Of a stretch of 64,000 nucleotides of DNA, positions 33,362 to 60,104 are shown piece by piece. How positions within the stretch are numbered: the first letter of the stretch is position 1; every line of letters starts with the position of its first letter. This stretch comes from Salinibacter pepae (lineage in GTDB: Bacteria; Bacteroidota; Rhodothermia; Rhodothermales; Salinibacteraceae), in the NCBI RefSeq assembly GCF_947077775.1, contig NZ_CAMTTE010000001.1:1888501-1952500 (forward strand). Direction: 5' to 3'. The notes under the pieces are model-generated. The model saw nothing but the letters and a program-made list of their open reading frames with translations. It was not told where the DNA came from and made no database searches. A program made the translations under genes and the position numbers.

Positions 33362-33435
33362 CGGGGCGTGGCGCAGTCTGGCAGCGCACCTGCTTTGGGG
33401 GCAGGTGGTCGCCGGTTCGAATCCGGCCGCCCCGA
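33362..33435 (+). tRNA. tRNA-Pro (anticodon TGG)
   Basis: Acceptor CGGGGCG pairs with CGCCCCG; the anticodon stem CCTGC/GCAGG encloses the loop TTTGGGG with anticodon TGG; the T-loop reads TTCGAAT. 74 nt, no encoded CCA. Confidence 0.95.
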
Positions 33436-33489
33436 CACCCACCCCCTAGAGCCGCTCCGTGTGATCGATAGCGCTCCATGTTTCGCTCT

Positions 33490-33773
33490 GCGCCCGTAGC
33501 TCAGTTGGATAGAGCAGCGGACTTCAACAGGAGCGTCCACGTGGCGACGCGTGGACTGCACGGTGCCGTAACGGGGAATCCTGTGAAATGGCAACCCCGT
33601 GGAAACTCAAGGGGACGACCTTGAGGCTCCGTAGAGACTGTACGCATCGCGCCCCGGGCGTCTCCGGGACGAAGAGACAGTCCAGGCCACAAATCCCGAG
33701 TGTCATCGGGAGCAGCGAAAGCTGCAGTGGTAGGCTAATCCGCAGGCCGCAGGTTCGAATCCTGCCGGGCGTA
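33490..33773 (+). tRNA. tRNA-Arg (anticodon TCT) interrupted by a group I intron
   Basis: The 5' exon is 33490-33524 (acceptor GCGCCCG, D-arm GCTC...GAGC, anticodon stem GCGGA, loop start CTT). The 3' exon is 33735-33773 (loop end CTAA, stem TCCGC, T-arm GCAGG TTCGAAT CCTGC, acceptor CGGGCGT, discriminator A). Joined, they give a 74-nt tRNA with loop CTTCTAA, anticodon TCT (arginine). The intron splits the anticodon between positions 34 and 35, the same relative position as the cyanobacterial tRNA-Leu(UAA) intron. The tRNA is functional only after splicing. Confidence 0.92.
33525..33734 (+). ncRNA. group I self-splicing intron in tRNA-Arg(UCU)
   Basis: 210 nt. The 5' exon ends in U and the intron ends in G, the group I rule. 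A GAG guide triplet at about 33531-33533 can pair with exon CUU (P1), as in the Anabaena tRNA-Leu intron. Visible helices: GTCCACG/CGTGGAC (about 33535-33556, P2), CTCAAGG/CCTTGAG (33606-33626), P7 as ACTGT (33637-33641) with ACAGT (33677-33681), the S-like element AAGAGACAGTCC, and a terminal hairpin GCAGC GAAA GCTGC with a GNRA loop (33712-33725). No ORF, so it is a small autocatalytic intron without a homing endonuclease. Confidence 0.88.
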
Positions 33774-33851: not shown

Positions 33852-33922
33852 GGTGACGTGGCCGAGTGGTCAGGCAGAGGCCTGCAAAGCCTCCTACGGC
33901 GGTTCGAATCCGCCCGTCACCT
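33852..33922 (+). tRNA. tRNA-Cys (anticodon GCA)
   Basis: Acceptor GGTGACG pairs with CGTCACC; anticodon loop CTGCAAA gives GCA; T-arm GGCGG TTCGAAT CCGCC. 71 nt with no encoded CCA. It lies about 80 bp after the split tRNA-Arg. Confidence 0.95.
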
Positions 33923-34106
33923 CCTGCAGGCGCCCCTGGGCTCGGCCCGGCGGGCGCTTTTCGTCGTTCACGCCCCTCTGCCGATATTTGTGCCGGGAAC
34001 CGGACAGCCGATGCCCTTCCGTTCCACGGCCACAGAGAATCCACGGCCACGGAGAAAGCCTCGAACTGCTTGAAGGGTGAGCCCCGACGGCGCGCCGCAG
34101 TGTGCG

Positions 34107-36725
34107 CTAGAAGGGCGCGTCGTCCTCGAAGGAGCCGCCCCCGCCCGCGTTCCCGTCGGGGGGCATGGGGGCAGAGCCGTCGCCCTGGGGCGGGCCGCCC
34201 CCGGGATTGTCGTACTGGGTGGTGAGGGGCTCGAAGCGGGCGTACTGGTCGACGAACGCCAGCTCGACGGAGCCGATGGGGCCGTTGCGCTGCTTCCCCA
34301 CAATGATCTCGGCGATCCCTTCGGTGGAGTTGCCCTGCTCGTCGACCGTGATGCCGTAGCGCTCGGCCCGGTAGATAAACGAGACCACGTCGGCGTCCTG
34401 CTCGATCGAGCCCGACTCGCGGAGGTCCGAAAGCTGGGGGCGCTTGTCGCCGCCCCGATTCTCGACGGCGCGGTTGAGCTGAGAGAGGGCGATGACGGGA
34501 ATGTCGAGCTCCTTGGCCAGGCCCTTGAGCGAGCGGGAGATGTGGGCGATTTCCTGCTCGCGGTTGGCCCCGCTGCGCAGGTTGGCGCCGGAGGCCTGCA
34601 TGAGCTGCAGGTAGTCGACCACGACCAGCCCGAGTTCGTGTTCGGCCTTCAGGCGGCGGCACTTGGCGCGGAGCTCCAGCACGCTGAGGCCCGGGGTGTC
34701 GTCGATGTAGATGTCCGCGTCGCTGAGGGCCCCAGCCGCCCGGGCCAGGCGTTGCCAGTCGTCGTCCTTCATCCGGCCCGTGCGGGCCCGGTGCGCGTCC
34801 ACACGGGCCTCGGAGGTGAGCATGCGCTGGGCGAGCTGCTGCGCGCCCATCTCCAGCGAAAAGATCGCCACGCCCGTCGACCGCTCCGGGTGCGTGGCGG
34901 CGTTCTGGGCCGACGCGAGCGCGAAAGCAGTGTTGTGTGTGACCGTCCCGTCCCCCAGCAGAAATCGGCCGTTCCCGTCGAGCGTGAAGCCGTAGTAGTT
35001 CCCCACCCCGTCGGGTTCAACCTTGATCCCCGTCACCCGCCAGTCGCGGAAGTCGGTCCAGGGGGCAGCTTGCTTGCGCTCAACACGGACTGGAATCTCG
35101 TCGACGTTTCCGTTGAATCGGACACGATGACCCTCGGACGCATGGCCCGTTTCTGCAATCCCGGCCGTTTTTTGCGTGAGTGAGGTTCGGTAGCCGAGCG
35201 TGTCGCAAAGAAACTTGATGTCCTGAGCGAGCTTTTCGCTCGACTGCGTAATCTCGTAGGTCCCTCCGTGCCCGTCGTTGAGGTGGCCGTCGCTGTCGAT
35301 GAGGCCGGCCAGAAGACGAAGCCGCTTCCCACGAGAATTGCCGAGGTAAAGTTGGGGAATGTGCTTGTCGCCCAGAACGCCCAGTGCACGCAGGGCGCCC
35401 TGTACAGATTCGCGGGTGGCCATCGCTCCGCCTCGATCTCCACTCTTCACGAGGTAGGCGGGGCAGCGGCGGTGCTCGTCCGAGGCGCTGACCGTATCCC
35501 CGCGCTTTTCGGCAATCTCTTGGAGTCCCGTGCTGACCTCGTCGTCAGTGGTGTAGATGCGGGCGTTGTCCGACTTCCCGTCTCCGAGCCAGAGACCCAG
35601 AAAATAAGGATCGAGTGGAACGGGCTGATCGGGAAACTCCGCGGCGACCTTGAACCCCTTGTTGTCATCCTTCCACTTCTCGGACTGGTCGAGGTAGTCG
35701 CGGACTGAGATATCGGCAATTGCCCCCCGGTCGCGCGCCCCCTCTTGACGGCTCTTCTTGAGAGAAAGGATGTGGCTCTCGTTCACGCGGTAGTCCATTC
35801 CCTGCTTCTGACGAACCCAGTACATCTCTTCCCGGCCGCGAGCGAGAGACCGCACGGTCCGCGGCGTCCCGTCGTCTCCCATGAGCCGATCGCCGACCTC
35901 CACCTTCTCCACGGGCTTCGTGCGTCCGTCGTACATCATCACCGGTGTGCCTTTCCCCAGGCACTTTCCCATGGAGGGGCGGGCCGCAATGATGATAAGG
36001 TCGGAGTCCTGCCAGCCGCTCGTCAGGTCGTCGAGCTTGGGGAAGCCGCTGGGCACGCCCGTGATGCCGCCGTCCTGGCCGTGGATGGTCTCGAGGCGCT
36101 CCAGGGTGTCCTTCACCACCTCGTTCATCGGGGCGGCGGCCTTGCGGAGCTGGTTGTCCGAGATCTGAAAGATCTTGCTCTCCGCCTCGTCGAGCAGCTC
36201 GAAGGCATCGGCCCCCGGGTCGTAGGCCTTCTGCACGACCGTCGTCATCGTCTCGATCATGCGGCGGAGCAGCGACTTCTCCGCGATGATGCGGGCGTGG
36301 TACTCCACGTTCGCCGCGGAGGCGACCTGTGTGGTGAGCTCGGTCAGGTAGTAGGCGCCCCCAATCTCCTCCAGCTTGTCGCGGCGCCGCAGCTCCTCGG
36401 TGAGGGTGACGAGGTCTACGGGGTTGCCCCGCTCGAAGAGGTCCTGGATGCAGCCGTAGATGCTCTGGTGCTTGCTCTCGTAGAAGGCATCCGACGGAAG
36501 GATCTCGATGGCCTGCGGAATGGCCTCCCGCTCGATGAGCATGGCGCCGAGGACGGACTTCTCCACGTCAACGGCCTGCGGCGGGACGCGCCCCGACTGC
36601 TCGTGGACCGCCTGGGCCTGTTCGCGCTGCTGCTCGCCCGTGCCGCCTCGCATCTTTTCGAGGGGGTAGGACGACCGGGACGACTCGTCAATATTGAACC
36701 GCTGGGAGTCGTCGTTTTCAGCCAT
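34107..36725 (-). CDS. dnaB: replicative DNA helicase DnaB, intein-containing
   Basis: 872 residues from ATG 36725 (MAENDDSQRF). Without the intein it is 528 residues. The N-terminal domain (PQAVDVEKSVLGAMLIE) and the RecA-type helicase core are present: Walker A 'ARPSMGK|T' is split by the intein after GK; later motifs are 'IFSLEMGAQQLAQRML', 'LVVVDYLQLMQ', 'ALSQLNRAVENR', 'LSDLRESGSIEQDADVV' and 'GKQRNGPIGSVELAF'. The helicase unwinds the fork as a hexamer. ATP binding needs excision of the intein because it interrupts the P-loop. The C-terminus is Gly/Pro-rich and ends in acidic DDAPF. Confidence 0.97.
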   Translation of the reverse strand: MAENDDSQRFNIDESSRSSYPLEKMRGGTGEQQREQAQAVHEQSGRVPPQAVDVEKSVLGAMLIEREAIPQAIEILPSDAFYESKHQSIYGCIQDLFERGNPVDLVTLTEELRRRDKLEEIGGAYYLTELTTQVASAANVEYHARIIAEKSLLRRMIETMTTVVQKAYDPGADAFELLDEAESKIFQISDNQLRKAAAPMNEVVKDTLERLETIHGQDGGITGVPSGFPKLDDLTSGWQDSDLIIIAARPSMGKCLGKGTPVMMYDGRTKPVEKVEVGDRLMGDDGTPRTVRSLARGREEMYWVRQKQGMDYRVNESHILSLKKSRQEGARDRGAIADISVRDYLDQSEKWKDDNKGFKVAAEFPDQPVPLDPYFLGLWLGDGKSDNARIYTTDDEVSTGLQEIAEKRGDTVSASDEHRRCPAYLVKSGDRGGAMATRESVQGALRALGVLGDKHIPQLYLGNSRGKRLRLLAGLIDSDGHLNDGHGGTYEITQSSEKLAQDIKFLCDTLGYRTSLTQKTAGIAETGHASEGHRVRFNGNVDEIPVRVERKQAAPWTDFRDWRVTGIKVEPDGVGNYYGFTLDGNGRFLLGDGTVTHNTAFALASAQNAATHPERSTGVAIFSLEMGAQQLAQRMLTSEARVDAHRARTGRMKDDDWQRLARAAGALSDADIYIDDTPGLSVLELRAKCRRLKAEHELGLVVVDYLQLMQASGANLRSGANREQEIAHISRSLKGLAKELDIPVIALSQLNRAVENRGGDKRPQLSDLRESGSIEQDADVVSFIYRAERYGITVDEQGNSTEGIAEIIVGKQRNGPIGSVELAFVDQYARFEPLTTQYDNPGGGPPQGDGSAPMPPDGNAGGGGSFEDDAPF
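34932..35963 (-). mobile_element. intein with LAGLIDADG homing endonuclease in dnaB
   Basis: 344 residues between Lys of the Walker A motif and Thr. It starts with Cys (CLGKGTPVMM), has block B 'YRVNESHILSL' with its His, two LAGLIDADG-type motifs 'FLGLWLGDGK' and 'LLAGLIDSDG', and ends with 'GDGTVTHN' followed by Thr, the expected C-terminal His-Asn plus +1 nucleophile. All splicing residues are intact, so it should be active in protein splicing. Both endonuclease motifs carry acidic residues, so homing activity is possible. An intein at this DnaB site has been recorded in Salinibacter. Confidence 0.95.
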
Positions 36726-36832
36726 GAACGGAGGGAAAAAGACTTGGGGAGAAAAAAAGACGCATCCGCTCGCAGGGTCCAGAGGCCGGGAACACTCCTC
36801 GGACAAGGAGACCGGCGCGGGGGCGATCAGGT

Positions 36833-59826: not shown

Positions 59827-59873
59827 TGGGCGGTGCTGGATTTGAACCAGCGACCCCCTGCTTGTAAGGCAGG
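59827..59873 (-). other. 3' half of tRNA-Val (TAC), likely attachment site remnant
   Basis: On the minus strand, the anticodon stem-loop CCTGC CTTACAA GCAGG (anticodon TAC), variable loop, T-arm GCTGG TTCAAAT CCAGC and acceptor 3' strand ACCGCCC plus A are those of a normal tRNA-Val. The 5' half (acceptor GGGCGGT and a regular D-arm) is missing; upstream is the unrelated GTCAG...CTGAC palindrome at 59877-59899 or so. Such 3' fragments are left when an element integrates into a tRNA gene. The intact tRNA should lie at the far end of the element. Confidence 0.7.
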
Positions 59874-60104
59874 TAGTCAGATGAGCGTAGTCAACTGACG
59901 CGCATAGGTTTACACAGAAAAGAGAAACCCCTCTTCTGCTAATGTTCTGAAAACGGCCCTTCTAACGGGTACTAACTTCGGGAATTAGGGGTTATCCGTC
60001 GCGTTGGGGCCGAGGAGACTACGGCCCGATGTAGGATTGGACCACCTAATTCGTTGCAGACCGTCATCACGTTGGCGGCCTGATGGTTGGGCGGTCGAAA
60101 TGCG

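Follow-up and report, generated by a model that had tools for sequence, protein, structure and literature searches.

The window analysed here, a stretch of 64,000 nucleotides (C1:1888501-1952500) within the 3.63-Mb genome of Salinibacter pepae (genome code G000, completeness 99.97%), contains a tRNA-Pro/tRNA-Arg/tRNA-Cys cluster in which the tRNA-Arg(UCU) gene is interrupted by an insert of 210 nt (Table 1). When the two exons were joined and analysed with ARAGORN, a single tRNA-Arg(UCU) of 75 nt was obtained, with every stem paired. The exon and intron boundaries given in the preliminary description of this locus were found to be exact, and the U at 33524, the terminal G at 33734, the P7 helix and the GAAA-capped end hairpin to which it pointed are all present. 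It had also warned that annotation tools tend to miss or misplace a tRNA of this kind, and we observed both outcomes: ARAGORN run on the locus with default settings reported tRNA-Pro and tRNA-Cys and no tRNA-Arg(UCU), and an intron-aware run detected a 210-nt intron with the junction 1 base off, under the label tRNA-Ser(GCU). The labels tRNA-Ser(GCU), tRNA-Leu and tRNA-Pyl, which ARAGORN gave to interrupted genes, were rejected as mis-reads of the junction or loop, and the identities of the interrupted fMet, Lys(UUU) and Arg(UCU) tRNAs were taken from the exon sequence. A match to YrlA (Y-RNA-like) at 33383-33540, which scored 30 bits where the cut-off is 69, was discarded as a tRNA-like resemblance spanning two tRNAs.

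Table 1. Features of the interrupted tRNA-Arg(UCU) gene and its neighbours (positions in the window).
Feature	Position	Strand	Description and basis
tRNA-Pro(UGG)	33362..33436	+	Neighbour, member of the conserved Pro-Arg-Cys tRNA cluster; ARAGORN
5' exon, tRNA-Arg(UCU)	33490..33524	+	Acceptor strand, D arm and anticodon 5' strand through U34; ARAGORN on the spliced sequence, same uninterrupted exon in relatives
Predicted group I intron, ORF-less, 210 nt	33525..33734	+	Between anticodon U34 and C35; last base is the omega G
Internal guide sequence AGGAG	33529..33533	+	GAG pairs with exon CUU to form P1, with a U34.G wobble at the splice site
P2 hairpin GUCCACG / CGUGGAC	33535..33556	+	Compensatory changes
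P3	33561..33649	+	33561-33565 and 33567-33569 with 33642-33649, enclosing P4 to P6; 3 double-change pairs in alignment A1
P4, with P5 inside	33571..33600	+	33571-33576 / 33595-33600; 2 double-change pairs, more when the tRNA-Lys intron is added
P6/P6a hairpin GG AAA CUCAAGG...CCUUGAG GCU CC	33601..33630	+	Loop is the site of the endonuclease gene in relatives
P7, guanosine-binding helix	33636..33682	+	33636-33641 / 33677-33682, pseudoknot with P3; 100% of cells paired, 2 double-change pairs
P8	33650..33671	+	33650-33653 / 33668-33671 and an inner stem; core alignment
P9 closing stem	33686..33731	+	33686-33690 / 33727-33731, enclosing two hairpins; compensatory changes
GCAGC-GAAA-GCUGC hairpin	33712-33725	+	One of the two hairpins within P9
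3' exon, tRNA-Arg(UCU)	33735..33773	+	C35 to discriminator A, CCA not encoded; ARAGORN and sequence
tRNA-Cys(GCA)	33852..33924	+	Neighbour; ARAGORN

The helices of the insert were examined by hand segmentation of 8 divergent introns, one of which comes from a tRNA-Lys(UUU) gene of another family; the segmentation string of L005 differs slightly from its loop text, and the helix strands, being read from the sequence, are unaffected. We found that 98.3% of the 296 cells of P1-P4 and P6-P9 were paired, with 18 double-change pairs, values that were reached in 0 of 2000 shuffles. In a MAFFT alignment (A1), the core from P3 to P8, including the P3/P7 pseudoknot, comprised 26 pairs with 98.9% of the cells paired and 8 double-change pairs, as compared with 35-50% paired when the same core was slid, and on four of five measures none of 500 shuffles reached the observed values. 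The pairing of U34 with GAG in P1 is identical in all 8 introns compared and the P6 pairs are likewise invariant among them, so that covariation speaks neither for nor against these two helices. The orthologous introns extracted ranged from 210 to 631 nt, all of them placed after U34 and ending in G, and GGAG stands after the splice site in the introns at position 34/35; the AG of the guide sequence could, in addition, pair with CU of the 3' exon (P10). Single-sequence folding, a method that cannot show a pseudoknot, recovered the P2, P6, P8 and P9 hairpins and gave z = -5.9 for the full precursor. The first strand of P7 is directly followed by the second strand of P3, which would leave no room for P7.1/P7.2, and this argues against subgroup IA.

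The family comprises 27 genomes, which we searched at the DNA level before analysing the loci with ARAGORN; the tRNA-Pro/tRNA-Arg/tRNA-Cys cluster is conserved in most of these genomes. The intron is present in seven genomes of the same genus (G000, G015, G020, G022, G017, G013 and G014) and in two others of the family (G005 and G023), and the gene is intronless in five genomes of the genus (G011, G012, G016, G018 and G021) and in eight from the rest of the family (G003, G004, G006, G001, G002, G007, G008 and G009). Its presence is thus patchy, as genomes with and without the intron occur within one genus. In seven intronless relatives the alignment revealed an uninterrupted tRNA joined exactly at 33524/33735, and all nine family introns have in common the insertion after U34 and the terminal G. 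The intron of a genus-mate (G015) is 98% identical to that of the window and keeps the terminal G; that of a Salinivenus MAG (G020, JAHENZ010000277), with its ORF removed, is 77% identical. Within the order, the tRNA-Arg(UCU) intron at 34/35 was read out in 15 genomes from two families (f1 and f5). A different group I intron, detected by RF00028 wherever that model was run, lies at 36/37 in the tRNA-Arg(UCU) of two other families of the order (L033, L034, L036, L041, L043, L117-L119, L121 and L126). The distinct introns at these positions indicate that tRNA-Arg(UCU) has been invaded at two sites, and with the 15 genomes and this further set the earlier view of UCU as an uncommon host in this phylum does not hold. 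Elsewhere, tRNA-Lys(UUU) genes were found with group I introns of 328-344 nt at 34/35, whose core resembles that of the tRNA-Arg(UCU) introns (L048-L050), and the tRNA-fMet genes of family f15, labelled tRNA-Leu by ARAGORN, also appear to bear group I introns (L044-L046, L112, L115, L122, L123 and L125).

In several relatives, the P6 loop of the intron harbours a gene for a protein of the PF11645 (PDDEXK_5) family. Intact ORFs were found in the 629-nt intron of the Salinivenus MAG (E 2.5e-35), in the 631-nt intron of Longimonas halophila (G005, NZ_PDEP01000002; E 2.8e-42) and, in an order-wide scan with R1, a covariance model of the conserved core built solely from tRNA-Arg(UCU) introns, within a 640-nt intron of family f5 (G094); the three encode 137-140 aa (E 1e-33 to 3e-42). 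Decayed remnants are present in the introns of G098 (366 nt), G103 (398 nt) and G099 (319 nt), shrinking in that order from HHTKTLGDLGVLKAQLD... to GILKAQ... and to a short stretch recognisable in DNA alone, and no endonuclease is present in the introns of G000, G015, G022, G013, G014, G023, G093 and G104. The window intron has no PF11645 ORF in its 210 nt, and no PF11645 match was found anywhere in the genome. Since the window copy lacks a recognisable endonuclease remnant, the argument for its descent from an endonuclease-bearing copy is drawn from its relatives; it retains GGGACGACC, which is near to the sequence immediately preceding the ORF in Salinivenus. The ribozyme core contains a conserved CCGUAGAG, whose UAG serves as the endonuclease stop codon in nearly all intact genes borne by introns. 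A profile of the three intron-borne endonucleases matched I-Ssp6803I (2OST) with E=0.0015, and an AlphaFold model of the Longimonas endonuclease (pLDDT 90.6) had the same structure as its best PDB match in Foldseek (TM 0.76, E=1e-10). The intron-borne PF11645 protein is predicted to be a PD-(D/E)XK homing endonuclease of the I-Ssp6803I type, and the occurrence of intact, decayed and absent endonucleases at one site is the series that would be expected of a homing cycle.

When the endonuclease alignment was scanned against 84,980 species, 80 loci were kept. Scanning of 58 loci with R1 detected a group I core in 41, and wherever the exons of these R1-positive loci were readable the host was tRNA-Arg(UCU); the intron occurs in seven phyla (Rhodothermota, Bacteroidota, Ignavibacteriota, Chloroflexota, Acidobacteriota, Pseudomonadota and Bacillota). 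Nearly all other loci consist of a free-standing endonuclease gene 2-103 nt from an uninterrupted tRNA-Arg(UCU), and R1 gave no match in the free-standing loci scanned with it; one locus (L175, Sporosarcina) was placed neither as intron-borne nor as free-standing. The free-standing gene lies about 75 nt downstream of tRNA-Arg(UCU) in Nostocales and 2-103 nt upstream of it in Myxococcota, and further hosts include Woesebacterium, a Planctomycetota MAG and a Mycobacterium MAG, among others. An extra C-terminal domain resembling phage HNH endonucleases (phrog_15471) was observed in free-standing endonucleases of Nostocales (L186 and others). In Ignavibacteria, the exons place the intron two bases further on, after U36, so that one endonuclease lineage is associated with two intron positions. 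Cytobacillus gottheilii (L151) carries an ORF-less tRNA-Arg(UCU) intron (R1 E=2e-25), the endonuclease gene standing apart from it, about 200 nt further downstream.

Close relatives of the endonuclease on viral contigs and in phages (L210-L226, Synechococcus phage Sf-FR1 and Acinetobacter phage Herod, for example) are free-standing, nearly all of them 3-68 nt from a phage tRNA-Arg(UCU); at L213 and L132 the adjacent tRNA, labelled Pyl by ARAGORN, has by eye the loop CUUCUAA, that is, UCU. More distant viral relatives adjoin other tRNAs. The PHROGs entry of the phage endonuclease family, phrog_5018, is annotated as 'unknown function', and a search for the endonuclease on plasmids gave no match. 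Distant PF11645-like endonucleases were also seen beside an annotated tRNA-Met in Salmonella phage vB_SenA_SM5 (L234) and beside tRNA-Ala(CGC) in Halorubrum virus HATV-2 (L236), contexts which suggest a wider set of tRNA-directed endonucleases.

We lean towards the view that these proteins form a previously undescribed PD-(D/E)XK endonuclease family devoted to tRNA-Arg(UCU), whose members stand free beside the tRNA in phages, cyanobacteria, Myxococcota and CPR or lie within an anticodon-loop group I intron in seven or more phyla. The endonuclease may travel between phyla on phage tRNA arrays, and its capture by introns would have given rise to a mobile intron with cured descendants, that of the window included, C. 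gottheilii being a surviving intermediate. The presumed target of the endonuclease is the tRNA-Arg(UCU) gene without an intron, and repair of the cut would copy the intron in; once the site is filled, the endonuclease gene would decay and then disappear, which would be the state of the window copy. A different history, in which an old, vertically inherited intron was lost repeatedly, a scenario put forward for the tRNA-Leu of cyanobacteria, and the endonucleases were later arrivals, would agree with the use of the same site in two families of the order (f1 and f5) and with the lack of an endonuclease in most copies. However, we consider it unlikely in view of the patchiness inside one genus, the finding of endonucleases, intact and decayed, at this one site in both families, and the recurrence of the same intron-endonuclease unit in distant phyla. 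The distribution speaks for repeated transfer, and mixed histories would also be compatible with it.

In the proposed splicing reaction, folding of the pre-tRNA would form P1 between the exon end CUU and the guide GAG, P7 would bind a guanosine that attacks after U34, and the freed U34 would then attack after the terminal G, joining U34 to C35. The product would be a mature tRNA-Arg reading AGA, a codon that is read only by a UCU tRNA under standard decoding rules. A tRNA inventory drawn from RF00005 matches contained 46 tRNA-like places in the genome, from which 45 tRNA genes were read; besides the window gene, its tRNA-Arg genes have the anticodons CCG, CCU, UCG and GCG. The preliminary description had proposed a search for a second tRNA-Arg(UCU), and none was present among these 45 genes genome-wide, in a list that may be incomplete for rRNA-operon tRNAs, as Ile(GAU) and Ala(UGC) are missing from it. 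With no UCU tRNA found in the genome besides the window gene, the reading of AGA should depend on splicing. The tRNA-Arg with anticodon GCG is located at G000:C1:3420041-3420114 (L082), and none of the 45 tRNAs read out had ACG; bacteria usually use a tRNA-Arg with ACG (read as ICG).

It might be argued that the tRNA gene is dead and its group I intron no longer active, with another tRNA reading AGA. AGA is indeed very rare, accounting for 3 of 4229 codons in ten genes of the window, the support for splicing comes from sequence, and the intron escapes the Rfam model. Nevertheless, the exons are perfect, no other UCU tRNA was found, the core pairs have been kept via compensatory changes, and the 98% identical intron of G015 has kept its terminal G, all of which makes a dead gene very improbable.

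The preliminary description had named comparison with Rfam as a check, and had set the lack of a group I match beforehand as a ground for rejecting its reading. RF00028, the sole Rfam group I model, gave no match to the window insert even at E<=10, and it did detect a tRNA-Leu(UAA) group I intron in the same genome. RF00028 is one model for 14 subtypes and is unlikely to capture group I subtypes (Nawrocki et al., PMC6125680). We found that R1 detects the tRNA-Leu(UAA) introns of G000, G015, G011 and G012 (E 5e-9 to 7e-8), as well as many other tRNA introns across the order. Because R1 finds introns that are RF00028-positive, we take the miss as a limit of the Rfam model. That the insert is not a group I intron, and is either removed by a protein enzyme in the style of archaea and eukaryotes or a chance insertion, can draw on the missing Rfam match but is scarcely credible, given that the P3/P7 pseudoknot, the terminal G and the splice-site U.G are all in keeping with group I, that R1, which derives from these introns, recovers group I introns recognised by Rfam, and that bulge-helix-bulge splicing endonucleases are not known in bacteria. 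The reading of the insert as a group I intron in tRNA-Arg(UCU) is borne out by the exact exon joining, the empty sites, the covarying group I architecture and the homology, seen with R1, to a tRNA-Leu intron that is recognised as group I. We are highly confident that the 210-nt insert is the endonuclease-less form of a mobile tRNA-Arg(UCU) group I intron, whose splicing is predicted to give the mature tRNA.

The tRNA-fMet intron of Synechocystis PCC 6803, which encodes I-Ssp6803I (Bonocora & Shub 2001; PDB 2OST), is likewise an anticodon-loop group I intron with a PF11645 PD-(D/E)XK endonuclease. Unlike that system, the present one has tRNA-Arg(UCU) as host, an intron after U34, an endonuclease only ~20% identical to I-Ssp6803I, and an endonuclease gene that occupies the P6 loop and has a stop codon belonging to the ribozyme core. 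A true I-Ssp6803I homologue (E=4e-59) was found separately, in G009 of the same family, within an intron of tRNA-fMet (L127). The tRNA-Leu(UAA) group I introns share the insertion at 34/35 after CUU and are of similar size, but they occupy another tRNA and have a clearly different core (P7 of the tRNA-Arg(UCU) intron is GACUGU), and RF00028 finds the Leu intron alone of the two. One such tRNA-Leu(UAA) intron, inserted after U34, lies in the same genome (L001; G000:C1:209133-209329, minus strand), which thus holds two different 34/35 tRNA introns sharing the exon end GGACUU. Agrobacterium and its relatives reportedly carry group I introns in tRNA-Arg(CCU), inserted after the anticodon (36/37), as Reinhold-Hurek and Shub are said to have described in 1992; these are also small, ORF-less introns of an arginine tRNA, but of another isoacceptor. 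SegB of T-even phages, a free-standing homing endonuclease of the GIY-YIG type, is likewise encoded inside a phage tRNA cluster, whereas the protein beside the phage tRNA-Arg(UCU) belongs to PF11645.

Group I introns of bacterial tRNAs are textbook examples. A 2007 survey counted four bacterial tRNA genes interrupted by group I introns and gave I-Ssp6803I (tRNA-fMet) as the sole PD-(D/E)XK homing endonuclease (PMC1995217), and the tRNAscan-SE 2.0 paper notes fMet and Ile2 tRNAs that are missing owing to group I introns (PMC8450103). To the hosts named in the preliminary description, tRNA-Leu(UAA), tRNA-Ile(CAU) and tRNA-Arg(CCU), tRNA-fMet must be added on the strength of these two papers, and tRNA-Arg(UCU) makes a fifth host beyond the four of the survey. 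A 2026 preprint on decaying endonucleases is concerned with LAGLIDADG enzymes and makes no mention of tRNA. In a search of open-access text, we met with no account of group I introns in bacterial tRNA-Arg(UCU) genes, nor of any endonuclease linked to this tRNA, and the mobile intron and its endonuclease family look undescribed. Since the full life cycle (empty site, intact endonuclease, decayed endonuclease, none) appears at one site in one order, and free-standing phage relatives adjoin the same tRNA, it becomes possible to test directly how endonucleases and introns unite. For genome annotation, this means that genomes of this kind will seem to lack tRNA-Arg(UCU), since the interrupted gene escapes both ARAGORN at default settings and the group I model of Rfam.

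Other features were met in the course of the analysis. An ORF of about 900 aa at 34107-36806 of the window (minus strand) encodes the replicative helicase DnaB and is interrupted by an intein (CLGKGTPVMMYDG...VTHN). At 59833-59895 (minus strand, L096) there is a degenerate tRNA 3' half with the anticodon loop CUUACAA (Val UAC), which scored 26.6 bits, under the cut-off; given an intact tRNA-Val(UAC) at a distance of about 8 kb, it is possibly an attachment-site remnant of an island. Group I introns were also observed in 23S rRNA near ...AACUAUAACGGUCCUAAGGUAGC (L042, L047 and L114), that of L114 being followed by an ORF resembling a LAGLIDADG protein (MQLTIDWVVGFVDGEGCF...).
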